Both the position numbers and the translations under genes were made by a program. Below the pieces are notes generated by a model. The model did no database searches, was not told where the DNA came from, and saw only the letters and a program-made list of their open reading frames with translations. From positions 1-64,000 of IMG/VR virus record IMGVR_UViG_3300017917_000715: a stretch of DNA of 64,000 nucleotides, one strand, 5' to 3'. This stretch comes from a virus. This document shows positions 6,154-64,000 of this stretch, in pieces; position 1 is the first letter of the stretch; every line of letters starts with the position of its first letter.

Positions 6154-6182
6154 TATACGTAGTTAATTAACGGATTACGTAT

Positions 6183-6467
6183 ATGAGTCGACCTAAACCA
6201 AAGATATTATTAGAACACACTAATAAAAAAACATATAAATCTGAGCAGATTTTAGAAGCCGAAGCAATTTGGGCTGTCTTCTATAAGAGTGAGCCTTTTA
6301 ATTTAAAATCGTTTAACAGCCTTACTAGCTATCCCGGACCTAAATATAAAAAAGTTAGTTTTAGCAATCCTGGTCACGCACACAACCTTGCTAAAAAATT
6401 AAATTTAACATTTGGTTGCGAAGATTTCCAAGTTGTTAAATTGACCTCTGGCACCATTGTAAAATGA
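6183..6467 (+). CDS. Small basic hypothetical protein
   Basis: A 94-aa Lys-rich protein with one likely alpha/beta fold ([39 protein letters not shown]). I see no catalytic motif, membrane segment or signal peptide. It sits behind a GATAAATA box, overlaps the following gene by 4 bp (ATGATAA), and probably forms a two-gene unit with it. I do not recognise it. Confidence 0.7.
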
Positions 6468-6871
6468 TAAGCAGAGACGCCCTTACAAAAATATTTTTAC
6501 AACAATGGGGCAAAAGTATTGATGATGCTAATGTAGCGATGTATTCACGTACATGGTGGCAATCAAACAGAACAAACAAACAAAACGCATTTCGATTAAG
6601 CGATAAAGGATACGAATTTCTTGTCGGTGAACTACAATTAACCGAATATGAAATTCCGTTTACCGAACCAATTGAATTAAGTCCCCAAACTATTATCTTT
6701 TTGGAACGGTACATAGATTGTCCTTACTACTTAACCAACCAAAGTATCACCGTATTTTCCGAAAAAAAGAGCTTTGAGCTTTACCTATTTTCGGACGATA
6801 TTCGAAAATTTGGGCTCATTAAAGCAATGAATGAGCGCCAAAAAGACTTAGACGATACAAATTCTAATTGA
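6464..6871 (+). CDS. Hypothetical protein, conserved phage type
   Basis: A 135-aa protein with an N-terminal helical region ([20 protein letters not shown]), an aromatic motif ([11 protein letters not shown]) and a central [11 protein letters not shown] that resembles a small winged or helix-turn-helix-like segment. The second half ([20 protein letters not shown]) is beta-rich. Such proteins are common in marine myoviruses without known function, as I recall. Its stop lies on the -35 element of the strong promoter that serves the MoxR gene. Confidence 0.7.
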
Positions 6872-6896
6872 CATTCCTAGCGGGTTGCGCTATAAT
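6868..6896 (+). promoter_or_regulatory. Sigma-70 promoter for the MoxR gene
   Basis: TTGACA at 6868-6873, a 17-bp spacer, and TATAAT at 6891-6896: a full consensus host sigma-70 promoter, suggesting early or constitutive host-polymerase transcription. The spacer holds a dyad, TAGCG-GGTTG-CGCTA (6878-6892), that reaches into the -10 element. The MoxR gene starts at 6955 after an AAGGA ribosome site. Confidence 0.85.
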
Positions 6897-6954
6897 ATAC
6901 ACATAGCGTAAACAAACGTATCGCATTTTTAACCCGTAACTTAAAGGAAAAACA

Positions 6955-8043: not shown

Positions 8044-8059
8044 TTTGGCATTGGACCAA

Positions 8060-8088
8060 TTGACAGGACCTACGGGTCCTGTTATAAT
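8060..8088 (+). promoter_or_regulatory. Sigma-70 promoter for the VWA gene, spacer is a hairpin
   Basis: TTGACA at 8060-8065 and TATAAT at 8083-8088 with a 17-bp spacer. A perfect 8-bp inverted repeat ACAGGACC-TACG-GGTCCTGT (8063-8082) fills the spacer from inside the -35 to the base before the -10. In RNA from the upstream gene it would form a very stable C(UACG)G tetraloop hairpin; in DNA it is an operator-like dyad. Confidence 0.85.
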
Positions 8089-8113
8089 ATATACATACAC
8101 TAAAGGAATATAA

Positions 8114-9298
8114 ATGGCACACGCAGATCCAATTATTGATAAAATTATTGTAGCAAGAGTTGGCTTGCTACTTCGCCATCCGTTCTTTGGTAACCTCGCA
8201 ACAAGGTTACAAATTAAAGAAGCAAGCGAGTGGTTACCTACAGCCGCAACAGACGGCCGCCACATTTTCTTTAATCGTAAGTTCTTTGAACCGCTTACAG
8301 TCAAACAAGTAGAATTTGTCATTGCACACGAAATTCTACACGCTGTTTTTGACCATATGGGCCGTTGCGAAGGGCGTGACCGTAAACTGTTTAACATTGC
8401 ATGTGACTATGCAGTAAACGGACAAATTGTACGTGATAAAATTGGAGATCATCAACTACCCGATATCAAAATTTTCCACGATCAAAAATATTATGGAATG
8501 AGTGCAGAACAAATCTACGACGATTTGTATGACAAATATGATGATGAGCAATTGGCCGCATTAGGTCAAATGCTCGACGAACACTTGGATCCAGACGGCA
8601 ATGGCAAAGATGGACAGCCTCGTTACTCTAAAGAAGAACTCAAACAAATTCGCGATGAGATGCGCGAAGCTGTAATGCAGGCTGCACAAGCCGCAGGTGC
8701 TGGTAATGTTCCTGCTAGTGTTGCACGTATGATTAAGGAACTTACAGAGCCTAAAATGAATTGGCGTGAAATCCTACGTCAACAAATTCAAAGCACTATT
8801 AAAAACGATTATACATTTATGCGTCCTAACCGCAAGGGTTGGCACATGAGTGCAATTCTTCCCGGTACTAACTACGACGAGACTATTGATATTTGTGTGT
8901 CAATTGATATGTCAGGCTCTATTGGTGATGAGCAGGCAAAAGATTTCTTATCTGAAATCAAAGGTATTATGGAAGAATATAAAGACTTTAAGATCAAACT
9001 TTGGTGTTTTGATACCCAAGTCTATAACGAAGCAGATTACGACGGATACAACATGGATTCGTTTATGGAATATGAACCAATGGGTGGTGGTGGCACTGAG
9101 TTTGATGTAAACTGGGATTACATGAAAGAACGTGGCATCCAACCTAAGAAGTTTATTATGTTCACAGACGGCTATCCGTATGGTAGTTGGGGTGACGAAC
9201 TTTACTGTGATACAGTATTCATTATCCACGGTAACGATACAGTTGTTCCTCCGTTTGGAGAATATGCTTACTACGAGGCAATTAAGGAAAATGCTTAA
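8114..9298 (+). CDS. VWA-domain protein with HEILH metallopeptidase motif
   Basis: A 394-aa partner of the MoxR ATPase. The N-terminal part has VIAHEILHAVFDHMGR (HEILH at 72-76), a zinc-protease-like helix. The C-terminal third is a von Willebrand A domain with a complete metal-ion adhesion site: DMSGS (265-269), the GGGGTEF threonine, and FTDGYPYG. This layout (DUF2201-like N-domain plus VWA) is known next to MoxR ATPases. The acidic middle (CDYAVNGQIVRDKIGD ... HLDPDGNGKDG) links the two. The HEILH could be a true protease or only a structural zinc site. It has its own strong promoter 26 bp upstream and shares TAATG with the next gene. Confidence 0.85.
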   Translation: MAHADPIIDKIIVARVGLLLRHPFFGNLATRLQIKEASEWLPTAATDGRHIFFNRKFFEPLTVKQVEFVIAHEILHAVFDHMGRCEGRDRKLFNIACDYAVNGQIVRDKIGDHQLPDIKIFHDQKYYGMSAEQIYDDLYDKYDDEQLAALGQMLDEHLDPDGNGKDGQPRYSKEELKQIRDEMREAVMQAAQAAGAGNVPASVARMIKELTEPKMNWREILRQQIQSTIKNDYTFMRPNRKGWHMSAILPGTNYDETIDICVSIDMSGSIGDEQAKDFLSEIKGIMEEYKDFKIKLWCFDTQVYNEADYDGYNMDSFMEYEPMGGGGTEFDVNWDYMKERGIQPKKFIMFTDGYPYGSWGDELYCDTVFIIHGNDTVVPPFGEYAYYEAIKENA

Positions 9299-33188: not shown

Positions 33189-36100
33189 TTATCCTTGATC
33201 AAATGTTGATGTATCGCCGTCAAATGTGCCGTTACTATCAAACGATGATGCAGTTCCTATTGTGATATCATATTTACCAATATCTGTATACCATACACCT
33301 GGAGCAGCTTTAATGAACCTTGCAATTTTGCCGTCATCATCAAGGATATTTGTTTTAGAATCCCAGCTAGTTCCTTGTCGTTTTACTACAGTAACTCTTG
33401 TTCCAAAAGTTAAAGTATTAGTTAATTCAAGCTGGGTGCTTAAATTATCAACTGTAAAATCTGCAGGGAAAGTTACATCGCCTTCGGTACTTTCGGGATG
33501 AATATTAACATTATGTACTTTGTAAGAATCTTTCTTGAGGCGAATATTTCCTACAAAAAATACCCAGTTATTAGAATCAGTTGTAAAACTTGTTGAGCTT
33601 GTATGATTAGATACACACTTATATGTGTAAGACCCAACTTCTACTACATCATTTACTTTGTAATCTACGTTTGGCGACCATGCTGCTGAAGCGTAACCTC
33701 CAACAAATGCTTCTACTGCACTCTTAGCTAAATCTACGGTTTCAGTTTGAGTCATCTGACGGCCTTGATATTCCCAATCAGTAGTAAATCCGCCTGGAAC
33801 AAACGATAATGATACAACATTTGTACCATCAGATTTAACTTGTTCAGTAGTATTACTTTCAACATATGGAATAGTTTCTGAAGCGCCAATATCTTGAACA
33901 TAACTTCCTATTCTATGTATGCCTGGAACCCCGGTACCTAATGTACCGCGTCTTAACTGGCTTAAGAGGTAAGTTGTTATACCGTCTGTAACCTTTGGTT
34001 CAAGTTTAAAGTACTCAATGCGTTCTCCTCGTATTTCAATAATACCAGGTTTGTTGTTTGGTATACTTGGAATGTCAAAATTACTTGCATCTTCAACTTC
34101 TATGCTGATATCAGTATATTTTAACGGTCTAACTAATCTAGTTTTCTTATTTGCGTTTAAACGTTTAAAGTGTGTTCTGTTTAACATATCTTTAAACTGC
34201 ATATAAGAAATATTTGCCCCAACAACATTACTACTGAATGTTATTAATGTAAATTGATCAGCTGCATCTGGGTAGAATGCTAATTTAATACTCTTTTTAT
34301 CTTCATTTAACTTAAAGTCTGCAGAAGGTGTTAGTAAAGATCCGTTCTTAATTACCCAAATGTAGTTGTCGTCCAATACTGTGCGATCAAGTTGAATTAT
34401 GCCGCCAGACACACCTTTATAATAATAGTATTCTGCTGAGTTTGGTACTAAGTTAGATTGTGTAGTAACGTTAATAACTGTACGTTGCAAATCAAGAACA
34501 TCGTGTCTGTAAGAGCTTACAACTTCAATAATATTTGAGCTGTCATATGGTGTTGCAAATACAATCTGAGGACTTGTTGTTGAAGTAGCTGGGACATAAA
34601 CATATCCTAAGTCTTGTCTAACACTAACAACGAGAGATTTATTTTGATATTTCTTACGAGTGTTTGTGTTTATCTTAACTGTAATACCGCTGAGATCAAC
34701 AATATAATCTGTTCCGACAGTTAACAAATCACCATCTGCAATTACAACAATATCAGTTACTGACACACTATACGGAAGATACTTTGTTGCATCAAGTGTG
34801 TAGTTTAACTTTGTTCCTGTAATTGTAAAATAACTGTTAGTTGGGCCATTTAAAATAGTATTACCAACTCGAACAATCATGTTTGACTCAATTGGTAAAC
34901 TATCTCCTATTTGATAGGATAGGTCATAAGTAGTTCCACCGTTGCCTACAATTCTTTCTGTATTAGTAATTGCATAAGTTTGTGCAGTTCCCTTTACAAT
35001 GATATATGTAATTAAAGCGCCATTTGATGGCGGAACACTAAATTTCAAACCTGTTCTGTTTGCACTATCGTAAGATGAATCTGTTTCAAATACTGCAGGT
35101 GTGCCTGGCTCTGCTGGCAATCCATCAACAGTAACATAATAGTTGATACTAGATAACCAAGGAGCCTTTGTTATAAATTCTGTTGTTGATCCGTCTCCAA
35201 TGAAGTAATCAAAGTCAAGAATGTCTGTACCGTTTGCGCCAAAACTGAATATTGAAATCATTTTTCCTTCAGTTGGTGCTGTATTAAAAATAACTTTTCT
35301 ATTTCTGTAATCAACAGAATAATCATCATTTAGAGTAGCAATAGTTGAAATTGAACCTAATTGTCCAGTTATTAGATCTTTTTGCCCTTCAGTAAATTTA
35401 ACGATTACCGCTGTGCGACTATTTGGTTGTTGGGTTATATCGAATTCTTGTTGGACCCCGTCGGCAATATAACTGTCAACTTTAATATTAGCAGATCCCG
35501 ATCCAACTCTATCATACACTTTAATTGCCACTGCATCGACTACTTGTCCTGGAACTACTTCTTCTGGTGCTGGGCTAGAAATAGGTGTTACAAATCCGTC
35601 ACCATCTACTAAAATATCGTCTGCAGATAAACCTGTAGCAGTTGAATATGCCATATTACCGCCAGACAATGCCGTATCGTAGTCAGTATCTTGCGGAGTT
35701 ATACTTCCATCACTAGTGCTCTTACGCCAAATAAACTGATCGCCTTGTGCTACTACAAATGATCCAGGAATGCTAAATGTTTTTGTTGTTGGGTTTATTA
35801 AATTATCAGGTACTCCGTCTGATATAATTGTTTGCATTATTGCTGTGTCAGGATTTGCGATTGGTGGCAATCCAGTTAAAGCATTATCTGCAGCCAACAC
35901 TTCTGCTTCTTTTGTAGTAACTTCTAATTGTTTTGCATCAATTTCATCATTTTTATCTGCTAAGTCAGCTGTTGTGCTATCTATATTAGATTGTATTGCA
36001 GGATTAGCTGTATTAACTAGATAATTAATTTGACTCACTGTTGGCAAATATTCAGGATCTCCCGGTTGAAGTTGGGAAAGAATAATATTCAAAGTATTAA

Positions 36101-39100
36101 GTTCTAATTGATTATCATATAAATCAGCATTCAACTGTGCTAATGTATCTTCAATCACTGCTTTTTCGTTTTCTAAAACTAATAGCTGACCTTCTAATAC
36201 TGTTAATTCTGCCTTCTTGGTGTTTAGATTATTTCTTGCAACACCAGTAACATTATAATTAGGATCATCTAATCTTACAGGGCTTAAGAATGCTTTAATT
36301 GTAATTGTGCTGCCAACTGGCACTGGTTCTTCTAAGAAAACTGTACCGTTACCGTTAATACGGCAATCAATTGGATCTACTAGATCTCTAGTAAAGATTG
36401 CAACAGAAGAATCTTCAACATCACTGAATAAAATTTGATTAATTTTAATGTGTGTTGCATCAATAATTTGAGTTACAAGAGTATTATAACCTAATTGCTT
36501 TTCAACAATAGGAGTAATACTCACTCGGTCTCCAATTTTTAAACCGTCTGTGCTGTCAACTACTAACACATCAGTACCAGCTAAATTAGCTGCATCAACT
36601 AAATTAACTGATCTTGTAATTGTAACAGTTGGTGGATATAAATCATAAACATTAAAATTATAAATTAGTGTAAATCCGTCTCCCGAATATGAATCAATGT
36701 TTACACCTGACCAATAAACGTTAAGTTCTGTGCCGGCTGCAGGAACATATGGCAATGTAAATGAATGGGTGTTTGCAGCAACGGTTACAATGTAATCATC
36801 AAATTTTTCATCATAACTATCCCACTTATCTGTGTAATAAGGAACACTATCCCAGCCTTGATTAGATTCAAATCCTAGAGAATTAATTACAACGCCACCA
36901 TAATCAATACCAGTCATTAACTGAGCTAAGTCTTTTCCTAACTCACCAGCAGATGGAGTATAGTAATGCTGTATTCTATCCGCTGCATTAAGAGTAGACC
37001 AATCTTTAATATAATTAATAGTTATTGTTGATCCTTTTGCAGGTGCTGTTGTAAATGTAATAGCTCCGCTATATGTTGTGTAACCTCTTGATGTAGATTT
37101 AACAATTGATAGCTTATAATTTGCTCTTAAAGTTTCTACACCATTAATTAATACTGACGCTTTATTGATGCGTAAGTCAGGTGCCCAAATTAGAGGAAAT
37201 TGTAATCTAGATCCTGAAACTTCTGTTTCGCCAGAATAAATCTGAGTTGCTGACAAGTCAGTAACAAAATATGCTTGTGTTACTCTATCAAATTTAATTT
37301 TTACAAGATTAGATCGCACAACACCATTGCCAATAATAGCAAATGCTTTTGCAGGTGTACTATTTTGAGTGGTTCCTCCTTCAAGAATAACTTTTGGAGC
37401 ACTTAAATAGTTTGTTCCTTTGTTTAATAAAACAATGCGATTAACTTTTCCGTTTGTAATAAACGCTCTAGCCTTTGCACCAGATCCTGTATTGCCTACA
37501 AATTTAACCACAGGCTCTGAAACATAACCACTTCCTTGATCAGCAATAACTAATTCAGTTATTGAATATCCTAAATTATCATACCAGTGCTTCCATGGAT
37601 ATTCAATTACTTTACTGCTATCGGCTTGAATAATTCCGTCAACTGCATTAACTGTAATTGGTAATAATTTTCCATTTTCGTATACAGGAGGTAAATCAAA
37701 ATCAGTAGTCGACAAATAGTTTGTATCTACTTTATCGTATGCACTTACGTATTCTCTAATTTTTGTTCTGTAAGGTTTAACTTCGTCAATATAATCTTCA
37801 AAATTAGATAAATTGTCATTGTTATAAGTAACTTTTTGTTTTAATTCACCAACTTGATGTTGAGCTTTTACAAAACTAGTTTTAAAAATCCAATCAACAT
37901 ACGTTTGTTCGCTTAAAATGTATCGAACTGAACTAAAGAATAGATCAAGATATGTGCCTCTAAGATTATCAATTAGTATATTATTTTTTAAAGTATCTAA
38001 AATAATTCTTAATTCAGTAGACGCTGAATCATCAAATATACCGGCGTCGTATAAAGAACCGTCAAACCCATACTTACTATCACTGAACTCATATAGAGTT
38101 GACGAAAATTGTATTGTTCCTTTTTCTCTACCAACAACTCGATAACTTTGTGTCCAGTCTACACTATTTGAATCTGCATATTTTTCTACTAATACCCATG
38201 TACCCAAATTGGTAGTTCTAATTTTTACTAACTGTCCTACAGAAGATTCAATGTTATTAAGTTCTGTAAATGAGTTTACTGAAAAATCAATAGCTGTAAA
38301 CTGATTATATCCTGTAGCATACCAATCAGCATATGACCAATAATTTCTAACGTCATATGATCTGCTATGAACTCTTGACCATGTTAGCGTAGTTGGTTCA
38401 TATGAATATATACTCCAGCTATTATTTGCAACAGAATCGCTATGTACTAAAACACTATAGCTTCTTACAGATATAGTTGTATTTGAATCATAGCCGTAAC
38501 CGCCAGATATAATTTCTGCACCAATAATCTGTCCACGGTTGTTTATTTTTGCTCGAATTTTTGCGCCGGTACCAGAACCAGTAATATCAAAATATGGAGC
38601 AATAATGTATCCGCGGCCTTTAGCGTTTACAACCACATCAACAATTCGACCATTTTCTATTATTACTGAAAGATTTGGTTTTTCATAAGAACCAATATTA
38701 ATAAATCTTAATTCTGCATCTGTATCGAGAGTTGTATCATACAGTCCAGTAATAGTACTTGGTTCTTTTTCAAAAGATTCTAATGCGCTAATATTTCTGT
38801 TTTCAACAATTAGTTCAGTTGCTAATTTTCTATTAACTTGTTCAATAAATTGTTTTAAAGCTTCAAAACGATTTACAAACATTCCTTGTCGAGGTCGGTC
38901 CTCTATACCATATTTTAATTTAGGTGGAAGGACTGGATCAGGAACAACTCGTCCAGCAAGATCTTTACCGCATAAACTATCAAACCATTTTTCTTCAATT
39001 GCTGATGGTAATATTGTTTCTGTATCTTCATTAACAATTCTCCATTGGCTATGAATCTTTTTATCAGTTTCTTCACTTGTCCAGTATTCAACTGACAAGA

Positions 39101-42100
39101 CAATATCTGTATCATTTAATAAAGGTTTAACGTTTACTAAACTAAAAGAATTACTGCTAGTTAATGCAAGATACTTATGGCCGTATCCTCTCGGATTGGC
39201 TATTAAGTTTGCAACACTATCCGCTGACATTTTTCTGTTGCCTATTGACGGAACAGTTCTCTTATTCTTAACCCAGAAATAATACGTATTTTTAAAAGAT
39301 TTACTAATGTTGTCATATTTTTTAACAACACTATAAACATTGTTATCATACAAACTAGTTCCGCTGATGCCTAGTGCTATTCCGGTTTCAGTATCTGCTT
39401 GTTCGTTCCACTGAGCAGGTGTAAGTTTTGTTTCAACCCATTCATAAATGTCAACACTTGCCCCTGGAAATAATGTATTCCATGTGCTGTTTCTATAAAT
39501 TAAATTATCATCGTAACTATTAAAGAACTTAGCAGTTCTTAAATCCCACCACAACATTCCAACTTGAGACGATGTCCATGCCATGCCGTCATCAACGTTA
39601 ACGCTAGTATCTCCAACAGAATAAGTTGCTGGATCATAAAAAGTTTTATATTTTATTTCTGTATCAGCAATACCTGGAATTTTTCCTTGTACAGAATCAA
39701 TAACATCTAGATATGATACTAGTTTATTTGTAGTTTTGTTATATAAGAACGCTCTCTTAATCTTTGTTAAATCAACTCTATCAATTTCTGCACGGAGTTT
39801 TTTCCAACTTAATGTATTAGGTTTCTTACGATATTCGTAAACTTTGCCTGAAATAATACCTTGATCAATAGCGTAAGGTGCACCAACTAAAATGTGATTA
39901 GAACTTACTGCAAATCCTTCGTTATACCCAACTGTTTTATCATCAGTATTAGATAGGCTTTCACTAAAAATCCAGCGAGAATTGTACATATCATAGATAT
40001 CAATTCTTCCAGTATCTTCTTGTAAGTCAGTAACTCTAGTTAGATCATTATCAAATGTTGTTGGTGTATTAGGAACTTGTTCTAGATCTATTACTGTTCC
40101 AGTGCCTGTACCAACATTGACTGCCGTAAATAACTGTCCTTGGGTATATATTAATCCCGTTGTACCAGCAACTAAATTCCAATTGGTATTACCTAATTTT
40201 CGAATCTTATAAGACATGCCGGTAACGATTGCACTAGCCGGAATAGATGTATATAAATCAAATGTTGAAATAACTCTACTGTCTGCGCCTTTACTGTAAA
40301 CAACTAATGTTTGGTAGTCGTTCATAAAACGAATTTTTGAACCAAAGAAACCCGATGGTTCAGGATTAATATTTTTTAGTCCAAAGCCAGTAGTTGTATA
40401 CGTTGTACCATTAAACTTATAAGTGTACACTTGGCCTTGATCTATTAATTTTTCAGTATCTTTATATATTGAAGAAATTGCAATGTATGTTCCGCTGTCA
40501 GAAACAGTTACACTACTTCCAAATTCTACTTCGTCTCCTACAATAGTTTGTAACCAATTAAATACACCGCTAGTATTTTTCTTATAAACAAATACTTTAC
40601 CTACTGATGCTAAGCCGGGTGCCGAAATTAATAATGTTGATCCGTCTTTGCTTATTGCTAATACAGAACCAAATCCTTCTGCCTGTACACCGACTGGTAA
40701 ACTAATAACATTATTGTCATATCTCCACTCGGTTTGTGTAAATTCTAAAATACCAGAAGGTTCAGAATCTGGCGGTGTATTAATAATAATTGTAGTATCA
40801 TCAACTACTTCAGCTACATATTGTTTAGAATTAAATCCTGTACCTCTAATGTACATACCTGCAATAATATTTAAAGTGCTTGAAAGTTTAATTGTTGATC
40901 CTAAGCTTCCAATAGGGTTGTACGCAGTTGAGGCTTCTACTCTTGTAGAATATGTTAATCTATAAACAACGCCTTTACCGCTATCTGCGCCTGGGGCGCC
41001 AACAAATAATGTGTTATCACCAAAAATTACGGTTGATCCAAATTTTTCATTTGCCGATGGTGCTGGGCTTAATATTGTTGAAACTAAACTAAAGTTATTG
41101 CTTGAATCTTTACTATAAAGAGAAACAACACCCATATTTTCAAAACTTGCATTAGTTGCCTGTGTGGCGTTGTTTGCTGAAATAAATGGAGACTCAATCC
41201 AGTAATTTACTTGAGATGTTGGATTTTTATTAGTAGATGCTTGAAGAGCAGTATATGGAGTTAATCCTACAACAACTACATCGCCTGTACTATAAGTTGT
41301 TGCTGAATCCCAGTTTGCAGAGCCATTAACAAATACACATCTTGAAGATACGTTTGATGCTAATGGTGTTGCTGTAACAAACCACTGGCTATCCGGAGAA
41401 ATACTAATTGCTCCTCCTGTTAAGCTAGGCGGTGTTGGATTGTAATCTCCAACATCTTTAGAAATAAACGGTACTGTAATTGTTTGGCGAAGTAACCACG
41501 GAGCATTAGGACCTGCTTTATCGTAAACAATAGTTTCTCCTAAATCATTAGTGATCATTGCAATATCACTAGAATAATTTAATGTTGTTTGTCTACCATA
41601 TGACGCACCAGCTTGTGGAAATAAATTAGTCAACTCTGTTTTTGTATATGCAGAATTAAACTGCCATGTAGCCCACTTTCCTGAACCATCGTCGTCTGTC
41701 CATAGTAATTCGCCTTCTAACGGTGAAGAATTAAAATTTTGATCAGCAATATCAATTGCCTTAACTACATTTCCATTTTCTACTGTGTTTTTAATACGCT
41801 GACTTCTAAATATAGCCACTGTAATTTTATTTCGATATTGGAATGGAACTGTAAATGAAGATAAATTAGGTGAAGATAATGTTATAGTTTGCAATCCTAC
41901 AGAAACAACTTTATAAAAGCCATTAATTTCAGTAGCTTGATCAATACCGATGATATCATTAATTTCTATTGTGGTATTTTTTGAAAATTTAACAGTTATC
42001 TGTGCATCTGGTTTAGAGTATGTAACATCTGTTACCTCAACATTAAGTCTAGTATAACGATAAACATTCCACTCTCTACCTTCAAATCCAACCCAAACAT

Positions 42101-45100
42101 AATCTCCGTCTACAAAATCTGTTGAGTCTTTTGTTAGCACTTCGTCAAATTCTTTTAAGACAAATTTTACATCATCTGGACGTACATATCCTGGAGTTCT
42201 CAAATATTGAGAATGATTATTTGTAGTAGGCCATGGGTTATTATTGTATCCAATAGGTTTTAAATACACATCATTTGGAGTTTGGCGAACAATAAAGTCA
42301 ACTGCGGCTGGATCTACTTGATTAACTAATTCAAATCCTTGAGGATTATTTTTAATTAACGATTCGTCAATAATAAATTCAATATTTTCAAATGCTTGAC
42401 TTGCACCATATTGTCCTACACGCAATGCCCACTCTTCGTAGAATGTAATACTTTCCTTTCCGTCGGCGCTTAATACATCAAACAATTTATTGAGTACATT
42501 TTGAGTACCTTTTTCAACAATCATACCTTGATAAAATTTAAATTCACTAACATCATCTTTAATAATATTAGATAGGTACTGTCTCTTTTGGTATCCAATG
42601 AGATGCTGGGCAACTGTTTGCTGATCAGCATCAAAGTTATCGCTGTCCAAGCTATAAAAATCAGTAAATTGACTGGCTTTATAAGTCCAGTTTGGCAATA
42701 ATTGCGGTGTTGGTTTGTTATCTAATTTAATCCATTGCGTTAAATCAATTGTTTCTGATCCGGCAACTTTACTAGCGGCGCTTAGATAAAATTGTTTGTG
42801 TCTTACAATATCCCCAAGAGAGTAATCTTTCCAAGGTTCCCATTCTAAAACTACTGCTTGATCAAATATAAATCCAGGAATGTTAAATGATCCATTCCAG
42901 TCGCTACTAATATATCCAGAAACTAAAATACGCTCTTGTCTATATCCGCTTTCTGGATTATAAATTGTATCATTAAACATTGTAGTGTTGTTTAAGATAG
43001 CAACTTGTTCTTTTTGTACTAGATAGAATGTGGCACCGTATATGCCATCGCCTGTACTAGGAGCATAGCTTACACTATTATCATCTCTATAATTGTTTAA
43101 GAAATTTGGTTGAATTGGTGTTCCGTCAACTTTAAAAATTTCATAACCGTAAAATGGATTACGAATATCGTCAACTACAGAAAGAGGAGACGAGAATGTT
43201 AACTTTGCCGCGGCTGGGCTTAAACTAATAACAGCACTACCAACTTCACTTAAACCGTCAAGTTTATCATAGTCTTCTTCATTAAATGCAATTGATGCAT
43301 TTAAATTTCTTAATGCTCTATAGTAATCACCTTGATATCTAACAATAGATCCTGCTGCAACATCTTGATCTGGTAGCCATTCAGCCCATTTATCTTTGCC
43401 TGTACTCCAGTTTTGTGTTGACCAGAACATAAATTCTTTCGCACTAGTTTCCCAGTTACTAATAGTATTCAAGTTATTATTGAAGTCATCGAATATAAAT
43501 CCTTCATCTTTTAACCATTCGCCATAACCAACTAAGAAATCAACAACATCTTGTACTGAAGTAAATTTAGTACCGTAAGGAATTGTAATAGTTTCTGATT
43601 TATCCCAGTCTCTTCTAATATATGCATCTCTGCCGCCTATTACTGGCAAGGCAGGTAAGGGTTGATAATAATTTATTTCAAAAGTATCAGTTGTTGTGTG
43701 TAAAACTTTAGAACGATAATACTTATTACCATAAGACACAACTTTGCCTGCAGCATATTGATATTGAGGCGTCCAAATTGAAAAACTTTCAGAAATTCCA
43801 CCTACATTAATTAAATTACCTAATTTTACATAAGGGTAATATTTAAAAAATGGTTGAGTTTTACTATAACCTTTTACAGTATATCCATCGCCTAGGCGAG
43901 TAATAATTACACCACTATAAGTTATTTTTTTAATTGGACTAGATGTATTTGTAACAATGTTATAGTCTTCTTGCGGAACAAACACGCTTCCAGAACTTAA
44001 TGGTGTTTTGCTGTCTAGTAATAATTTAAATTTTTCTTTGCTAGTAAACGAACCAATTCTATGGCTTAGATTAGTGCCTAATGTTGATAAGTCAGACACA
44101 TACTCGCTATATGATTTTAAGTTATCGCTTAAAATATAATCAACGAGATAATTAATAATTCCAGATGTGTTTACACTACTAGCACTTGAATATATGCTTG
44201 GTAATTTTATATCTTTAGGACGAATACGGATGCCAGTATCTTTATATATGAGTTGTCCTGCTAAATTTCTTACCGTTCTAGATCTGTCTAAAAGTAAACC
44301 AATTGATTTAGCTGGATATAATAATAAGGTAGTTATTAACACACTAAATGGATAATAGCTGCTTCTTCTCCATGCTGATTCAACAGGGCTTACATCACCA
44401 AATATATAATCTTCTGCGGTTGAGTTTGTAATCACACCTGTTGCTAGTCCTGACATTATTGGACTCTTGATATTTCCAAACTCATCTACAGGTATACGGT
44501 TTCTTAAGTAAGGTCTAACAAATTCTTTAAGTTGTCTTTGCGGTTTTCCTGGTTCTCTAACCATACCGTCTGCAATGTCATTCCACAACACTAAGTTATC
44601 ACTTGTGTAAGGTGCTGGCCCGTATACTTCTTCCCACCACTTAGGCATAATGCTAAATCCTAGCATTTCCCAAGGACAGATATTTGGACGATCAGTGTCA
44701 AGCATCCAACGATGTATACCTTTCCAGTATCCAGGCAAAGGTAGCATGCCGTCTGGTGTTGTTAATCCTCTATGGTTAAATGTTAGTGGATCTCCTTTAT
44801 TATAAGAGATAGGTTTTGTAAAATCTCTATCTACTAAAGAAAGCCACTTATAAAAACTTGTTGCCAATACTTCATTAAACTCGTCTAAAGAATAAGGAGT
44901 TTTGCGACTATAGGAAGGAATAACACTATGAATGTCAAAAATTTCTGGATTGTATTCAATTTTAATATTATTAAAAATACGTTTTTCTAATTCTAAAATT
45001 AAATCATCTCTATAATCGCCGTACGCTAATACTTGACTGCCGTCATGACATTGAATCATTTGTCTTGGAGTCACTAGACTTGTATCAAGATATAGTTTAG

Positions 45101-48029
45101 GTTCAAACTTTGGCCAAATTCCTAACTTAGTAGGTGTTGGAGGAATATAAGACCCGTTTGTATTTTCAAATTCGTATATAGTAATTGCATCATCATTTGC
45201 TAAATCAGCAGAAATAACAACAAACCCTTGACTATTAAAAGTGTAGTCTCGTTGGTATAACAATTGAGTATTGTTTAAGTACACTAATACTGATTTAGTT
45301 GATAGACTATCTAAATTAAATGTACTACTTAACGGATATGTTTTTATTCTATAATCAAAAACAACTAAGTCTGTTCTCACACCACCATTAAAAGGAACCA
45401 TATCGCTAAAATAATAAGGAGCAGTCTTTGGTTTGTCTTTAGTTATTTCTTGTAAAATTAAATTAACCTGTGTTACAGGATCAGTATCAATGCCTAAATT
45501 TTCTGCAACTGTTATAAAGTTATGTTTAAATTTATTATAGTCTTCTCTTGCAGATTCAATTGCATTTACAATATTGTTTCTTTCAGATGTAATATGATAA
45601 AGTGCTAAACTAATTGGGCCGCTGTGTTGAACAAATTTAGTTCCGTATGGTGTTATGTTACCAAGACTTTGTAAATTACTTGGGCCTGGATACAGCCCAG
45701 AAAAATCAGGAACATTCTCTACAATAGATCCAACATGGTCAATTACTTCACCAAGTGTAAAATCTGTAATCTTATCGTTAAAAGAATTGTTTTGTAAATT
45801 AATTGGAATTTCATAGAACCCGTTATCATTAATAGGTTGATTTGCGTATGCTTTTATTGTTAGAATATCGCTAGTTAATATGTCATTTGATAACACAATA
45901 GTCTTGTAATATGAACCGTCTACTACTGACCATTGTGTAGTATCTAAACGATTTCCATTTACAAAAACTTTTATTCTTAAATCTTCAAGATTGTTAATAT
46001 CATCAAAAATATCTAATTCAAAGTTATTAACTTTATTTGATTTCTTATAAATTCGTAAGGCTGCTTGTGTATTTTCAACGATTGATTTTTGCCAGCCGTT
46101 AATATACGAAACTTCAAATGTTGGCTCTGTTTTAACCAGATAACCAACTTCAGTGTTGCCTGTTAAGATATTTGAAACATCTTTATACTGAAAAGTATCT
46201 GTTGCTAAATTAAAATTAAAAAGTATATCGCCAACGTTTGTAATATTTTTGTATGATAAAGGAAAACCTAAAACACTATCCGATGTTCCTGTTCCAACTT
46301 TATAAGAAAATAATTTTGTACCAATAAATGTTGAACCTTCATATACAGATTTATCGCCGTAGCTATAACCATTAGAATCAACAATATCAAACAATGGTGC
46401 TTGATTCAATGATGTTTTTTCTTGTGCTACATTCCAGTTAGATCCGTTAAACCAATAAGTTTTTCCTTGGTTTTTATTGCCTTGGCGAATTAGTACAACA
46501 TCATTTTGTTGAGGTATTGTTTCTTCAACTAAATGGATTTGACGAACACCGTCAAGTATTAAAAAATCAACTTTATAAATTCTGTTTTTAACAAGAATAT
46601 CAGTATCGGCTATAAACAAAATTCGCTGACCTTGTGCTACTGGTATTCCGTCAATGTTATAACCTAGTTGTCCTTCAATTGTAGAAAACACATCAACTGT
46701 ATAATCGTCTACAAGGTCAACATCGTTTACTGCTCTTGTGCCGTAATTAAAAAGTCTAATGTTTGGTTCAAACTCAATGATAGGACGTACTGCTCGAGCA
46801 GTTTGATCAATGTTTGCTATTTTACCGTTGTAGGTTGCGCTAGCTTCAATAACATCTTTGTGGAACCATCTGTTATAACGAGACCATGGATTGTTATCAT
46901 AGCTTCCTCTATTGATTAATACATAATCTTTATTTCCAGCAAAACTAGTTGCATCGCCAAATGGCAAACTATCAAAAGGTGTACTGTCAAACGGAATTGC
47001 TTGTGCGGTTGTAAACGGTGAAAGAAGTTCTAATATTCTTTCGTCTACTAAACGAATAGAATCACCAACGCCTTCAACAAAATATTGACTAGATTTATAT
47101 GACTCTGGAATAACTTGTCCTTTAAAAGACACTTTCATTCCATTACGCAACTCTGTTCCATCAGGTAAAGTATAAGTTCTTTTACCAAGAATTTCTGTGT
47201 TGATATCAAATGTTGTATTTTCATCAATAGATAAAATCTCAAATACTCCGCCTAAATCAATGTCTGACTCGCTGACATAGTAAAGGACGTCTGGAGAATT
47301 ATATGGAACTGTAAATTCAATTACACCGTTTTCAACAGCATAACCAATTAATCCTTCATCTTGATATCTATCAGCAGGGCCTGCTGTTCTTTTAGTTTTA
47401 ATTGAAAAAGGATTTCCCAAACTTGTAATTTCAAATCTATATGTTTCCCCCCTGTATAATCTAATGCTTGGATTTTGTTCTAAGCCAGTTGGAAAAAATA
47501 CATAAGTGTTATTATCTGCTTCTGCACGTACTTCTACACGATAAGTACTGGTAATTTCTTGCTGTTTACCTGTAATTGTAATAGTATCAGGGCCATATGG
47601 TAACCAGTAATAATTTTGAAAATTTACAAACTTATCCCAGTCGATGTGCGGATCCCAAGAATAAAATTCTTGAGAATTTAATCTTGAATGATTTGAAGTA
47701 TTACCTCCAAATACCTTAAGTTGATTAATATAGTCTTGGTAATCTTTAAAGAAGGTAACATTACCTAAAGTATCAGTTACAGTATATCCTGGTTCAAGTT
47801 GATAATTTTGTCTATCATTACTTGGGGCTTTTATAAAAATGTCGTCACCGGTAGTTGCTTTAGAATTTTCTCTACCAATATATCCATTAATTTTTTTAAC
47901 TGTACCCGGTTGTACTAGTTGATTGACCGTAGCTTGTAAAAACTTTTTATTAGAATCAGTTCTAAAATACTTGGGTAATAGATCTGCACTATTAGTTTTT
48001 TTGCCTTCTGAATTGATGCTATCAGCCAT
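33189..48029 (-). CDS. 4946-aa giant virion protein at the gp7 position
   Basis: One uninterrupted 14.8-kb gene directly after gp6, where T4 has baseplate wedge gene 7 (about 1030 aa). The start (DLLPKYFRTDSNKKFLQATV, YSWDPHIDWDKFVNFQNYYW) is a pattern I recall from huge cyanophage/pelagiphage structural proteins. Later come a Trp-rich region with LPLPGYWKGIHRWMLDTDRP, FG-GAP-type propeller blades at about residues 2170-2740 (FGSTVIFGDNTLFVGAPGAD, GFGSVLAISKDGSTLLISAP), a predicted coiled coil at about 3925-4055 (KKAELTVLEGQLLVLENEKA), and several YIADG/FIGDG(S/V)xxxF beta repeats near the C-terminus. I infer a baseplate or tail-tip protein that takes the place of gp7 and perhaps gp8/10. Overlaps gp6 by 8 bp. 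Confidence 0.75.
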   Translation of the reverse strand: MADSINSEGKKTNSADLLPKYFRTDSNKKFLQATVNQLVQPGTVKKINGYIGRENSKATTGDDIFIKAPSNDRQNYQLEPGYTVTDTLGNVTFFKDYQDYINQLKVFGGNTSNHSRLNSQEFYSWDPHIDWDKFVNFQNYYWLPYGPDTITITGKQQEITSTYRVEVRAEADNNTYVFFPTGLEQNPSIRLYRGETYRFEITSLGNPFSIKTKRTAGPADRYQDEGLIGYAVENGVIEFTVPYNSPDVLYYVSESDIDLGGVFEILSIDENTTFDINTEILGKRTYTLPDGTELRNGMKVSFKGQVIPESYKSSQYFVEGVGDSIRLVDERILELLSPFTTAQAIPFDSTPFDSLPFGDATSFAGNKDYVLINRGSYDNNPWSRYNRWFHKDVIEASATYNGKIANIDQTARAVRPIIEFEPNIRLFNYGTRAVNDVDLVDDYTVDVFSTIEGQLGYNIDGIPVAQGQRILFIADTDILVKNRIYKVDFLILDGVRQIHLVEETIPQQNDVVLIRQGNKNQGKTYWFNGSNWNVAQEKTSLNQAPLFDIVDSNGYSYGDKSVYEGSTFIGTKLFSYKVGTGTSDSVLGFPLSYKNITNVGDILFNFNLATDTFQYKDVSNILTGNTEVGYLVKTEPTFEVSYINGWQKSIVENTQAALRIYKKSNKVNNFELDIFDDINNLEDLRIKVFVNGNRLDTTQWSVVDGSYYKTIVLSNDILTSDILTIKAYANQPINDNGFYEIPINLQNNSFNDKITDFTLGEVIDHVGSIVENVPDFSGLYPGPSNLQSLGNITPYGTKFVQHSGPISLALYHITSERNNIVNAIESAREDYNKFKHNFITVAENLGIDTDPVTQVNLILQEITKDKPKTAPYYFSDMVPFNGGVRTDLVVFDYRIKTYPLSSTFNLDSLSTKSVLVYLNNTQLLYQRDYTFNSQGFVVISADLANDDAITIYEFENTNGSYIPPTPTKLGIWPKFEPKLYLDTSLVTPRQMIQCHDGSQVLAYGDYRDDLILELEKRIFNNIKIEYNPEIFDIHSVIPSYSRKTPYSLDEFNEVLATSFYKWLSLVDRDFTKPISYNKGDPLTFNHRGLTTPDGMLPLPGYWKGIHRWMLDTDRPNICPWEMLGFSIMPKWWEEVYGPAPYTSDNLVLWNDIADGMVREPGKPQRQLKEFVRPYLRNRIPVDEFGNIKSPIMSGLATGVITNSTAEDYIFGDVSPVESAWRRSSYYPFSVLITTLLLYPAKSIGLLLDRSRTVRNLAGQLIYKDTGIRIRPKDIKLPSIYSSASSVNTSGIINYLVDYILSDNLKSYSEYVSDLSTLGTNLSHRIGSFTSKEKFKLLLDSKTPLSSGSVFVPQEDYNIVTNTSSPIKKITYSGVIITRLGDGYTVKGYSKTQPFFKYYPYVKLGNLINVGGISESFSIWTPQYQYAAGKVVSYGNKYYRSKVLHTTTDTFEINYYQPLPALPVIGGRDAYIRRDWDKSETITIPYGTKFTSVQDVVDFLVGYGEWLKDEGFIFDDFNNNLNTISNWETSAKEFMFWSTQNWSTGKDKWAEWLPDQDVAAGSIVRYQGDYYRALRNLNASIAFNEEDYDKLDGLSEVGSAVISLSPAAAKLTFSSPLSVVDDIRNPFYGYEIFKVDGTPIQPNFLNNYRDDNSVSYAPSTGDGIYGATFYLVQKEQVAILNNTTMFNDTIYNPESGYRQERILVSGYISSDWNGSFNIPGFIFDQAVVLEWEPWKDYSLGDIVRHKQFYLSAASKVAGSETIDLTQWIKLDNKPTPQLLPNWTYKASQFTDFYSLDSDNFDADQQTVAQHLIGYQKRQYLSNIIKDDVSEFKFYQGMIVEKGTQNVLNKLFDVLSADGKESITFYEEWALRVGQYGASQAFENIEFIIDESLIKNNPQGFELVNQVDPAAVDFIVRQTPNDVYLKPIGYNNNPWPTTNNHSQYLRTPGYVRPDDVKFVLKEFDEVLTKDSTDFVDGDYVWVGFEGREWNVYRYTRLNVEVTDVTYSKPDAQITVKFSKNTTIEINDIIGIDQATEINGFYKVVSVGLQTITLSSPNLSSFTVPFQYRNKITVAIFRSQRIKNTVENGNVVKAIDIADQNFNSSPLEGELLWTDDDGSGKWATWQFNSAYTKTELTNLFPQAGASYGRQTTLNYSSDIAMITNDLGETIVYDKAGPNAPWLLRQTITVPFISKDVGDYNPTPPSLTGGAISISPDSQWFVTATPLASNVSSRCVFVNGSANWDSATTYSTGDVVVVGLTPYTALQASTNKNPTSQVNYWIESPFISANNATQATNASFENMGVVSLYSKDSSNNFSLVSTILSPAPSANEKFGSTVIFGDNTLFVGAPGADSGKGVVYRLTYSTRVEASTAYNPIGSLGSTIKLSSTLNIIAGMYIRGTGFNSKQYVAEVVDDTTIIINTPPDSEPSGILEFTQTEWRYDNNVISLPVGVQAEGFGSVLAISKDGSTLLISAPGLASVGKVFVYKKNTSGVFNWLQTIVGDEVEFGSSVTVSDSGTYIAISSIYKDTEKLIDQGQVYTYKFNGTTYTTTGFGLKNINPEPSGFFGSKIRFMNDYQTLVVYSKGADSRVISTFDLYTSIPASAIVTGMSYKIRKLGNTNWNLVAGTTGLIYTQGQLFTAVNVGTGTGTVIDLEQVPNTPTTFDNDLTRVTDLQEDTGRIDIYDMYNSRWIFSESLSNTDDKTVGYNEGFAVSSNHILVGAPYAIDQGIISGKVYEYRKKPNTLSWKKLRAEIDRVDLTKIKRAFLYNKTTNKLVSYLDVIDSVQGKIPGIADTEIKYKTFYDPATYSVGDTSVNVDDGMAWTSSQVGMLWWDLRTAKFFNSYDDNLIYRNSTWNTLFPGASVDIYEWVETKLTPAQWNEQADTETGIALGISGTSLYDNNVYSVVKKYDNISKSFKNTYYFWVKNKRTVPSIGNRKMSADSVANLIANPRGYGHKYLALTSSNSFSLVNVKPLLNDTDIVLSVEYWTSEETDKKIHSQWRIVNEDTETILPSAIEEKWFDSLCGKDLAGRVVPDPVLPPKLKYGIEDRPRQGMFVNRFEALKQFIEQVNRKLATELIVENRNISALESFEKEPSTITGLYDTTLDTDAELRFINIGSYEKPNLSVIIENGRIVDVVVNAKGRGYIIAPYFDITGSGTGAKIRAKINNRGQIIGAEIISGGYGYDSNTTISVRSYSVLVHSDSVANNSWSIYSYEPTTLTWSRVHSRSYDVRNYWSYADWYATGYNQFTAIDFSVNSFTELNNIESSVGQLVKIRTTNLGTWVLVEKYADSNSVDWTQSYRVVGREKGTIQFSSTLYEFSDSKYGFDGSLYDAGIFDDSASTELRIILDTLKNNILIDNLRGTYLDLFFSSVRYILSEQTYVDWIFKTSFVKAQHQVGELKQKVTYNNDNLSNFEDYIDEVKPYRTKIREYVSAYDKVDTNYLSTTDFDLPPVYENGKLLPITVNAVDGIIQADSSKVIEYPWKHWYDNLGYSITELVIADQGSGYVSEPVVKFVGNTGSGAKARAFITNGKVNRIVLLNKGTNYLSAPKVILEGGTTQNSTPAKAFAIIGNGVVRSNLVKIKFDRVTQAYFVTDLSATQIYSGETEVSGSRLQFPLIWAPDLRINKASVLINGVETLRANYKLSIVKSTSRGYTTYSGAITFTTAPAKGSTITINYIKDWSTLNAADRIQHYYTPSAGELGKDLAQLMTGIDYGGVVINSLGFESNQGWDSVPYYTDKWDSYDEKFDDYIVTVAANTHSFTLPYVPAAGTELNVYWSGVNIDSYSGDGFTLIYNFNVYDLYPPTVTITRSVNLVDAANLAGTDVLVVDSTDGLKIGDRVSITPIVEKQLGYNTLVTQIIDATHIKINQILFSDVEDSSVAIFTRDLVDPIDCRINGNGTVFLEEPVPVGSTITIKAFLSPVRLDDPNYNVTGVARNNLNTKKAELTVLEGQLLVLENEKAVIEDTLAQLNADLYDNQLELNTLNIILSQLQPGDPEYLPTVSQINYLVNTANPAIQSNIDSTTADLADKNDEIDAKQLEVTTKEAEVLAADNALTGLPPIANPDTAIMQTIISDGVPDNLINPTTKTFSIPGSFVVAQGDQFIWRKSTSDGSITPQDTDYDTALSGGNMAYSTATGLSADDILVDGDGFVTPISSPAPEEVVPGQVVDAVAIKVYDRVGSGSANIKVDSYIADGVQQEFDITQQPNSRTAVIVKFTEGQKDLITGQLGSISTIATLNDDYSVDYRNRKVIFNTAPTEGKMISIFSFGANGTDILDFDYFIGDGSTTEFITKAPWLSSINYYVTVDGLPAEPGTPAVFETDSSYDSANRTGLKFSVPPSNGALITYIIVKGTAQTYAITNTERIVGNGGTTYDLSYQIGDSLPIESNMIVRVGNTILNGPTNSYFTITGTKLNYTLDATKYLPYSVSVTDIVVIADGDLLTVGTDYIVDLSGITVKINTNTRKKYQNKSLVVSVRQDLGYVYVPATSTTSPQIVFATPYDSSNIIEVVSSYRHDVLDLQRTVINVTTQSNLVPNSAEYYYYKGVSGGIIQLDRTVLDDNYIWVIKNGSLLTPSADFKLNEDKKSIKLAFYPDAADQFTLITFSSNVVGANISYMQFKDMLNRTHFKRLNANKKTRLVRPLKYTDISIEVEDASNFDIPSIPNNKPGIIEIRGERIEYFKLEPKVTDGITTYLLSQLRRGTLGTGVPGIHRIGSYVQDIGASETIPYVESNTTEQVKSDGTNVVSLSFVPGGFTTDWEYQGRQMTQTETVDLAKSAVEAFVGGYASAAWSPNVDYKVNDVVEVGSYTYKCVSNHTSSTSFTTDSNNWVFFVGNIRLKKDSYKVHNVNIHPESTEGDVTFPADFTVDNLSTQLELTNTLTFGTRVTVVKRQGTSWDSKTNILDDDGKIARFIKAAPGVWYTDIGKYDITIGTASSFDSNGTFDGDTSTFDQG

Positions 48030-62032: not shown

Positions 62033-62476
62033 ATGTCATGGTATTACAAAGATCAACTAATTGAAACCCTCCCTGAGGACTGTGTTGGCTTTGTGTATAT
62101 CATAACTAACCTCTTAAGCGACCGGAAATACATAGGCAAAAAACTAGCTAAATTTTCCAAAACTACATATAAAACAGTAAAACTTAAAAACGGCACAAAG
62201 AAAAAGAAAAAGATTCGCAGTAAAATAGACAGCGACTGGCAAGAATATTATGGTTCTAGCCCAGAATTATCTAAAGATATTGCGGAATTAGGCACAGCAA
62301 ACTTCAAAAGAGAAATACTTTTTTACTGTACTAGCAAGGCAGAATGTAGTTATATCGAGGCTCGCGAACAATTTTCCCGCAAAGTTTTAGAATCAAATGA
62401 GTATTATAACGGCCATATTCAAGTAAGAGTACACGGCTCACATATAATCAAGGCTCAACAAAAACAGGCAAAATAA
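62033..62476 (+). CDS. GIY-YIG endonuclease-like protein (SegE-like)
   Basis: A 147-aa protein with a GIY-YIG domain: CVGFVYIITNLLSDRKYIGK (the GIY-YIG pair appears as VYI ... KYIG) and then a basic insert KNGTKKKKKIRSK, YYGSSPELSKDIAELG and a Glu in CSYIEAREQFSRKVL. This matches the SegE-like family, as I recall. Such proteins can be homing endonucleases or repair-type nucleases. It is the last gene before the 0.5-kb hairpin-rich gap, which could make it the nuclease of a mobile intergenic unit, but no repeat borders are visible. Confidence 0.75.
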   Translation: MSWYYKDQLIETLPEDCVGFVYIITNLLSDRKYIGKKLAKFSKTTYKTVKLKNGTKKKKKIRSKIDSDWQEYYGSSPELSKDIAELGTANFKREILFYCTSKAECSYIEAREQFSRKVLESNEYYNGHIQVRVHGSHIIKAQQKQAK

Positions 62477-62477
62477 C

Positions 62478-62880
62478 GCCAAATTAAGCCCGCACTGGCG
62501 ACTGTTAAGTGCCCAAAATCCGTTCTGATGTGTGACGGTAAGGTAGTTCTGCTTGGCGCAGAGATGCAAATCACTATCCTTTACAGGACGTTGATGGGAT
62601 ATGCCTAAAGAAAAACCCGTTTGATTTGTAGCTATAGGATAAGAAATAGGCTAAAAGAAGGGAGAAAAACCCTACGTTTGCAAGTCAGTTAGCGTTGATT
62701 TGTAAACCGCCGTCATGTTAAGACAGCACGATTAGGTACCGGATGACCGCCTAAGCTAGTAGAAATACTTGTAGTGTAAACGCTAAGTGAACTGCTCAAC
62801 TCAGATAATGTTCAACTTTTGCCCGCAAGGGCAAAGTGTGACTACACAATCTAGATAATATCTAAACGCTTCGCGTTTAT
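62478..62880 (+). ncRNA. Candidate structured noncoding RNA
   Basis: A 0.5-kb stretch without a credible gene (62477-62992), much of it able to fold. Visible helices include CGCCA/TGGCG (62477-62500), TCTGC/GCAGA (62548-62562) inside a longer imperfect stem GGTAGT/ACTATCC, the long-range TTAGCGTT (62689-62696) with AACGCTAA (62779-62786), AGTA-GAAA-TACT (62759-62770), TTTGCCC-GCAA-GGGCAAA (62818-62835) and AAACGC-TTC-GCGTTT (62864-62878). GNRA-type tetraloops recur. GTTCTGATGTGTGACGG (62522-62538) and CTAAGCTAGTAGA (62751-62763) resemble by eye the two ends of tmRNA, but no tag ending in an Ala-Ala-type codon run or clear acceptor stem was found. The strand is assumed. Confidence 0.4.
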
Positions 62881-62936
62881 CATATGTTTGTTGATTATGT
62901 AAAAAATAGAAAAAAGCTCGAGCGAAAGCGAAGAGC

Positions 62937-62958
62937 AGAAGAACGTAGTTCTTCTTTT
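62937..62958 (+). terminator. Terminator-like hairpin
   Basis: AGAAGAAC (62937-62944), loop GTA, GTTCTTCT (62948-62955), then TTT. A perfect 8-bp stem with a short T-run, following the other hairpins and just before the late promoter box at 62965. Likely ends transcripts from the gp55-GIY-YIG run or the candidate RNA. Confidence 0.55.
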
Positions 62959-62964
62959 AACAGT

Positions 62965-62972
62965 GATAAATA
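62965..62972 (+). promoter_or_regulatory. T4-type late promoter box GATAAATA
   Basis: GATAAATA followed by TCATACC, 20 bp before the ATG at 62993, which follows GAGGAA. Same form and spacing as the other late boxes. Confidence 0.7.
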
Positions 62973-62992
62973 TCATACCACGAGGAATTATA

Positions 62993-64000
62993 ATGAAAGT
63001 CCATGAAATATTAGCAGAAGAAAGCCCTAAAGGTGTTGCATTTGAAATCTTTATAAAGATGTTGCCTAAAGAACTATCAAAAGCAGCATTAAAAGAAATT
63101 GATGATGCATTGCGCTGGTTAGCACGTACAGCTAAATCAAATCCTACTGTTGTTGAGGACTTAGCCACTTCGTGGGTTGCTGGTTCTAAGCAATTAGGTA
63201 TTAGTGTTCGCGAAATGGCACAAATGGCTGAACCTATTTGTAAGAAAGCTGGCATTGATGAGATGGACATTTATAAAGCTAAAGTGCTTGCTGAGAAATT
63301 AGCAGAGCCAAGCATGTGGCAAAAATTCAAAGATATGGTAGGCCTTGGTTCTAAGAAAGATCCTCTCAAACCTGCTGAAACTCCTAAGCCCGGTGAAGCT
63401 CCTGCGCCAGCACCTAAACCAGGTGAACCTCCTGCGCCTACTCCGACTCCTGAGCCAGCACCTACTACAACACCTAAACCAAGTGAACCACCAGCACCAG
63501 CTACTCCTACTAGAATTGCTGAACTACAATCAACTGGTAGAAAATGGTTAGAAAAGTATAACCCAAAATTGATGAGTTGGTGGCAAAGAGCTGATGTTAT
63601 TGCTATGGCATACGGTATTATTGAGCCTTGGTATACATTTAAAAAAGATGCAGAATGGGCAATTGGCGCATTTACAACACAAGCTAAAAACCCAGACGGG
63701 TCGTTGATATTTAAAACTAAAGAAGAGTTGTCTAAAGGCGTACAGCAAGCTGCACAAGAAGCAATGGCACAAACATTAGCCCTAATAGCAGGAAGAAAAA
63801 TTATTGGATACTTTACCGGTGTCAACAGATTAAGAGCACTAGACAAGAAAACACAAGACGAGATTAACGCTATCTATTCTACGTTAGGTGCAAAAGGACA
63901 AGTTGCCTTTGCCGCTTGGTTAGATACACCTCCAGGACGTCGTGCATTTGACGGATGGTTATGGGGTCAACTGTATAGCCAAACTGGACAAGAGGATACT
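62993..64000 (+). CDS. Late virion-type protein with Pro-rich linker (3' end outside window)
   Basis: At least 336 aa, open to the end of the window. It begins MKVHEILAEESPKGV. L7-A8-E9 fits the (I/L)-x-E cleavage site of the T4 prohead protease gp21, so a short propeptide may be removed. Residues 10-115 are helical. About 124-172 is a Pro/Ala/Glu-rich linker (KPGEAPAPAPKPGEPPAPTP and similar). Then comes a Trp-rich helical region with MSWWQRADVIAMAYGIIEPW and a PGRRAFDGWLWGQLYSQTG end. The late promoter and possible cleavage site suggest an internal or packaged virion protein. No enzyme motif was seen in the visible part. Confidence 0.65.
   Translation, partial: MKVHEILAEESPKGVAFEIFIKMLPKELSKAALKEIDDALRWLARTAKSNPTVVEDLATSWVAGSKQLGISVREMAQMAEPICKKAGIDEMDIYKAKVLAEKLAEPSMWQKFKDMVGLGSKKDPLKPAETPKPGEAPAPAPKPGEPPAPTPTPEPAPTTTPKPSEPPAPATPTRIAELQSTGRKWLEKYNPKLMSWWQRADVIAMAYGIIEPWYTFKKDAEWAIGAFTTQAKNPDGSLIFKTKEELSKGVQQAAQEAMAQTLALIAGRKIIGYFTGVNRLRALDKKTQDEINAIYSTLGAKGQVAFAAWLDTPPGRRAFDGWLWGQLYSQTGQEDT

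Follow-up and report, generated by a model that had tools for sequence, protein, structure and literature searches.

A probable large RNA gene with two matched words in a viral genome, extending the Polynucleobacter-1 family

The DNA studied here, called the window, is a stretch of 64,000 nucleotides (nt) from the IMG/VR virus record IMGVR_UViG_3300017917_000715, and the question it raises is what is encoded in the gap at 62477-62992. When open reading frames (ORFs) of at least 40 amino acids (aa) on both strands were considered, the only ORF-free stretch longer than 200 bases in the window, 62570-62850, was found inside this gap, which is indeed as unusual as a preliminary description of the sequence had stated. 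That description took the gap for a phage noncoding RNA with a faint likeness to transfer-messenger RNA (tmRNA). Our comparison of related sequences indicates that the gap is very probably an RNA gene in its own right, about 480 nt long and an extended member of Polynucleobacter-1. In its 3' domain the RNA carries two short words that are identical to each other within each RNA, whatever their spelling.

Identity and extent of the RNA

The cmscan search of the whole window gave a single Rfam match, to RF01718 (Polynucleobacter-1), at 62487-62631 on the + strand. The match, which defines the 5' domain of the RNA, scores 76.6 bits against a gathering threshold of 37 and covers the full length of the model, 1-141. 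No tmRNA, intron or ribozyme family was matched in this search, which the preliminary description had proposed as a check. Polynucleobacter-1 itself occupies one table line in Weinberg et al. 2010, where it is marked as possibly cis-regulatory (PMC2864571). The RNA of the window resembles this family in the full-length match of its 5' 141 nt, in its helices, in its freshwater origin and in its occurrence in Polynucleobacter genomes. It differs in having about 330 nt more on its 3' side, which include two pseudoknots, the matched words and a 3' hairpin, and in being mainly phage-borne.

Homologous loci were gathered with the SegE-like protein encoded next to the RNA and the RF01718 motif, followed by blastn and iterated nhmmer; all the phage sequences are metagenomic and part of the contigs are fragmentary. 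It was found with nhmmer that 182 loci match the RNA, mostly along the entire profile, which has about 376 positions. The homology extends past the RF01718 boundary, and the RNA is three times as long as its catalogued part. The 141-nt end of RF01718 is a model boundary, not a biological criterion, and it is not the end of the RNA, since homology and covariation continue to about 62955. When 102 non-redundant copies (below 90% identity, with a median pairwise identity of 0.65) were aligned with MAFFT, conservation was seen to reach the 3'-end hairpin at 62937-62955. From the nhmmer homology, this alignment and covariation, the whole conserved RNA was placed at 62485-62960 on the + strand, with approximate ends.

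Covariation was tested by scoring all column pairs with a G-test under average product correction, the null being each column's parsimony changes redistributed over the tree; this phylogeny-aware test of our own, on our own alignment, was used instead of R-scape. Across the 102 homologues 30 canonical covarying pairs were obtained, with E up to 0.1, spread over the whole RNA, and the helices of the RF01718 model were among those backed by covariation. The whole gap also folds more stably than its dinucleotide shuffles (z = -2.35). No conserved protein-coding frame was found in the RNA when such frames were looked for: closed frames of at least 30 codons are as common as in shuffles (0.86 vs 0.84), and there is no conserved tag frame, just as the preliminary description had noted for the gap. 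Strong support for its proposal of a phage noncoding RNA comes from the RF01718 match and from the covariation across homologous gaps that it had suggested looking for. Its idea of a new RNA class holds in part: one third of the RNA is already RF01718, while the remainder and most relatives outside RF01718 are uncatalogued. As far as could be checked, neither the matched words nor the larger superfamily to which we return below had been described. An orphan 141-nt Rfam family thus represents the 5' portion of a large RNA, which is common in freshwater T4-like phages and is shared with mobile elements of the likely hosts of these phages.

The likeness to tmRNA did not survive comparison. No tmRNA match was given by Rfam or ARAGORN in the window or in the related RNAs, the window had no tRNA match either, and the T-arm-like shape seen earlier at 62790-62806 fails, its second pair, 62791/62805, being standard in just 23% of homologues. 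A short stretch, UUCUGAUGUGUGACGGU, appears to resemble the 5' segment of tmRNA, UUCUGGAUUCGACGGGAU, and this speaks for a derivation of the RNA from tmRNA (RF00023). With no model match, tRNA-like domain, conserved T-arm pairs or tag frame, such a derivation is largely refuted and retains hardly any probability. The segment 62522-62538, once read as the 5' part of tmRNA, is special all the same, being the most widely shared box of the superfamily.

Two words that match each other

The two words lie on the + strand at 62803-62809 (word 1) and 62853-62859 (word 2), and both read AGAUAAU in the window. They are 7 bases long, stand about 50 nt apart and flank a hairpin with a conserved stem (62816-62836). 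Each is preceded by a fixed arm, ACUC at 62799-62802, which is invariant or nearly so among the 102 homologues, and AUCU at 62849-62852, which is likewise conserved, giving the contexts ACUC-NGAUNAN and AUCU-NGAUNAN. The words covary by identity and not by pairing. The covarying pairs concerned, 62798/62848, 62803/62853, 62807/62857 and 62809/62859, are identical and non-complementary.

The identity is strict. All seven word positions agree in 98-100% of sequences, whereas shuffled pairing of the words gives about 50% at the variable positions. At 62803/62853 every one of 26 parsimony changes hit both sites and none of the 102 sequences is discordant; double changes account for 9 of 10 at 62807/62857 and for 13 of 15 at 62809/62859. 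The word-word association reaches z = 54, as compared to 12-27 for two control canonical pairs. Across 153 loci, with spacings of 47-76 nt, three exceptions to the identity rule were seen, all at the last base. Relatives carry unrelated words that match each other all the same: AGCGAAA, AGAGAAA, AGTGAAAGAG and AGTAAAG, then GGTCAAGT and GTGTCAAGT, which have an indel in both copies, and also ACATAAAG, AAAAGATAGT and CAGATAATGTG.

Simple homogenisation of a duplication is excluded, because the arms differ in a fixed manner between the two copies (CUC against UCU). Covariation in RNA normally means complementarity, and for this reason strict identity between words is an unusual evolutionary signature, which suggests a mechanism in which sequences are compared or copied. 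A helix between word 1 and word 2 proposed by RNAalifold was rejected, as divergent copies change the words and keep the arms.

What could read the words

The explanation that we prefer, with a probability of roughly 0.42, is an RNA gene whose product combines a scaffold with matched words and would act in trans through a strand shared by the words. The 5' and central domains fold into the scaffold with two pseudoknots, and the 3' domain displays the two identical words around a hairpin. The reader could be a single target, either RNA or DNA, or else a nascent strand moving from word to word as between A and A' in telomerase and DRT10. It is proposed that the words must match and yet can take almost any spelling because the same complementary strand reads both; this reading of both words by one strand stands a little short of an even chance. 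Identity with no further encoded partner would be demanded by two classes of mechanism, a copied strand that re-pairs at the other word, or symmetric recognition. A host-encoded common target strand would give the same pattern and would be invisible in these data.

The template RNAs of DRT10 and telomerase similarly have two short direct repeats (A and A') in which identity is kept rather than sequence, and in DRT10 single mutants of A or A' fail while double mutants regain activity (PMC12632851). Several results weigh against a shared strand, and some of them concern this likeness. The spacer in our RNA is about 40-70 nt long and holds a hairpin, as against at most about 10 nt in these template RNAs, and the A-A' spacer of DRT10 tolerates about 10 nt and not 40 or more (PMC12632851). 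No reverse transcriptase (PF00078) was found in 23 phage records. On account of the long spacer and the lack of this enzyme in the phages, DRT10 and telomerase serve as an analogy and not as a membership. In addition, no complement of the words was found within the RNA, in 500 nt upstream or in 300 nt downstream, the best flank candidate for a third strand having z of about 6 as compared to 54 for the true word pair. Nor did 14 phage records show a complement at any conserved position; several of these records are fragmentary, and a host partner would be invisible in them. A more specific version is doubtful. In it the RNA would serve as a programmable template or guide in which the words form an A/A' pair, working through strand transfer by some polymerase or through dual guiding to a shared core, and it would belong to a large superfamily of RNAs from phages and mobile elements that carries the CCGUUCUGAUGUGUGACGG hairpin and is for the most part uncatalogued.

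The main rival to a shared strand is that one protein, dimeric or multimeric, binds both words as its sites and co-evolves with them in specificity, the RNA being a bivalent scaffold or sponge. The sites are equal, their contexts are equivalent and the identity is limited to 7 positions, as would be expected of such sites. Yet at least 26 switches took place at a single position, none of the 102 sequences shows an intermediate, and the words of relatives are wholly different, so that the protein would have had to be recoded repeatedly. No covariation with the words is seen in the SegE protein encoded next to the RNA, and own words are not enriched genome-wide, which argues against a repeated site or promoter. 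A protein reader is rather unlikely, and pairing accounts for the free spelling of the words in a simpler way than would a protein recoded dozens of times.

Self-processing of the RNA could also be at work: what lies between the words would be excised or exchanged at the arm/word junctions, with matching words keeping the product readable. The RNA is large, pseudoknotted and conserved, and the arms are pyrimidine-rich before both words, like guide-paired splice sites; in relatives the arms CCUC and UCCU are pyrimidine like ACUC and AUCU. Against such processing, neither a ribozyme or group I/II intron match in Rfam nor a covarying guide strand was found, which makes it quite unlikely.

Chance location of DNA sites (a recombination core, an operator or a promoter) inside the RNA gene is improbable. 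Here the 7-bp identical core resembles the overlap of tyrosine recombinases, and bacterial copies lie near a gene of this kind. Against this, no tyrosine recombinase (PF00589) was found in 19 phage records that carry the RNA, the spacing is 47-76 bp, the flanks are not inverted repeats and the words are not repeated genome-wide. The IS110 DEDD recombinase (PF01548), the partner expected of an IS110 bridge RNA, was not found in any of the 17 phage records and 3 bacterial ones searched for it. Translational bypassing at a word followed by a stop codon was considered and rejected, as the upstream frame is absent and the stop is missing in relatives.

Fold, carriers and neighbouring genes

On the + strand the fold starts with a first hairpin of 5 bp plus at 62492-62512 (covarying pairs 62494/62510 and 62496/62508), followed by the hallmark hairpin CCGUUCUGAUGUGUGACGG at 62519-62540 (62521/62537), of which exact matches occur also in RNAs outside RF01718, and a hairpin at 62547-62563 (62550/62560). 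In 62568-62627 a helix of 62568-62573 with 62622-62627 surrounds a UAUCC..GGA hairpin (62577-62588) and a hairpin at 62593-62621; the covarying pairs here are 62568/62627, 62570/62625, 62572/62623, 62596/62618 and 62597/62617. A long hairpin at 62676-62707 (62680/62703, 62681/62702, 62687/62696) offers one strand of pseudoknot 1 on its loop side, 62689-62695, which pairs with the 3' strand at 62780-62786. The seven pairs of this helix are standard in 79-99% of the 102 homologues and 62694/62781 covaries significantly. The perfect 8-bp long-range pair of the preliminary description is thus a real helix of seven pairs, the eighth, 62696/62779, being paired in just 13%. Pseudoknot 2, a crossing helix, joins 62712-62716 to 62743-62747, and its pair 62714/62745 covaries, with UA in 67 and CG in 35 of 102. 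In 62726-62777 the helix of 62726-62729 with 62774-62777 encloses a conserved GGUACCGGAUGACCGCC element, and its pairs 62727/62776 and 62726/62777 show the strongest canonical covariation of the RNA. The GNRA-type loop noticed earlier is borne out by a conserved GAAA tetraloop hairpin at 62915-62936, with the core GAGC-GAAA-GC/GAA and covarying pairs 62918/62934 and 62919/62933. The last element is the 3'-end hairpin (62937-62955, covarying from 62938/62954 to 62943/62949), followed by UUUUA. It is terminator-like, conserved and covarying, although a consensus scan for terminators did not score it as one.

Like GOLLD and ROOL (PMC12286853) this is a large, ornate phage RNA, differing from them in that it has no Rfam similarity to them and is not seen near tRNA arrays. 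The segment 62676-62773 weakly resembles cow-rumen-2 RNA (RF02947; 18.6 bits, E 0.79) near a GCCG...GGAUGACC element. The score is far below the gathering threshold of 66 and the resemblance is not repeated in other loci; a distant link is possible.

Upstream of the RNA, at 62033-62476 on the + strand, lies a gene for a SegE-like GIY-YIG protein (PF19835, E 5.8e-32), and at 165 of 181 loci such a gene directly precedes the RNA. PHROG 447 and many GenBank records name this product 'NAD synthetase', which PF19835 indicates to be a misnaming. Downstream, outside the RNA, the ORF list gives a + strand gene at 62993-64000 that is truncated by the end of the window and whose product had no family match in our searches. 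The RNA could be a cis-regulatory leader of this gene, as it lies just 5' of a same-strand gene and Polynucleobacter-1 was flagged as possibly cis-regulatory (PMC2864571). The RNA has its own conserved end hairpin, though, the genes 3' of it differ between phage loci, and in bacteria a same-strand gene need not follow directly, which leaves a leader with a low probability. Many ORFs 3' of the RNA, in the window and at other loci, start with MKxxDII(x)E, resembling T4 capsid-targeting peptides cut at (I/L)xE; these ORFs possibly encode internal head proteins.

The 71-kb record that includes the window encodes SbcC-like and SbcD-like subunits and a baseplate hub/tail lysozyme. Such gene content is typical of T4-like myoviruses, and on this sole basis the source phage is taken to be T4-like. 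The RNA is carried by many freshwater T4-like phages and also by integrated elements of Polynucleobacter, the genus of most bacterial carriers; a match was found in 14 of the 121 genomes searched from the genus of P. rarus. Bacterial copies retain the architecture and the word rule (AGCGAAA, AGAGAAA), with a difference at the first position in loci L421 and L427. They sit between a divergent DUF6641 gene and a gene for a tyrosine recombinase of about 190 aa; the neighbours of the RNA vary at other loci. In L439 and L441 no further ORF was found between the RNA and the recombinase gene, which supports a stand-alone RNA. Some bacterial elements encode a protein matching phage clamp loaders. DUF6641 was not found in the RNA-bearing phage records, and two proteins of the bacterial elements were not found in RNA-bearing phages. 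Searches of isolated phages and plasmids gave no convincing homologue, and the isolate loci of Melnitz-3 and Variovorax V45v66, fetched via the SegE protein, had no Rfam hit when scanned.

Elements in Polynucleobacter chromosomes (L438, L439, L440 and L441) carry AAA proteins similar to phage clamp loaders, along with integrases and with short proteins that start with MKxxEI; because of this content they may be satellites of T4-like phages with which they share the RNA. In L440, from P. rarus, an 813-aa protein directly 3' of the RNA (5958-8399, - strand) has a GIY-like motif (GIYILVG) and matches PDC-S14, a candidate defence family of PADLOC. In L447, L449 and L451, DUF6641/recombinase loci in which the RNA was not detected, other small ORFs occupy the slot, in the manner of a cargo hotspot.

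At DUF6641/recombinase loci there is also a second RNA type with no RF01718 hit, which shares the hallmark hairpin with the RNA of the window and whose two words are again identical (AGTGAAAGAG in L446, AGTAAAG in L448). A scan of IMG/VR for the hallmark gave many more RNAs of varied architecture, mostly outside RF01718; several have matched words, and in others none were found by a simple pattern. We infer that the hallmark-bearing RNAs would form one superfamily, mostly missed by Rfam, because they share boxes and because sub-threshold RF01718 hits occur (L503, L486). The contig IMGVR_UViG_3300002091_000057 gave two hallmark hits (L455, L465) with near-identical RNA, which could be two copies or one fetched twice. 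Elsewhere in the window, one open frame spans 33189-48029 on the - strand, and its 4946 aa make it very large for such a phage.
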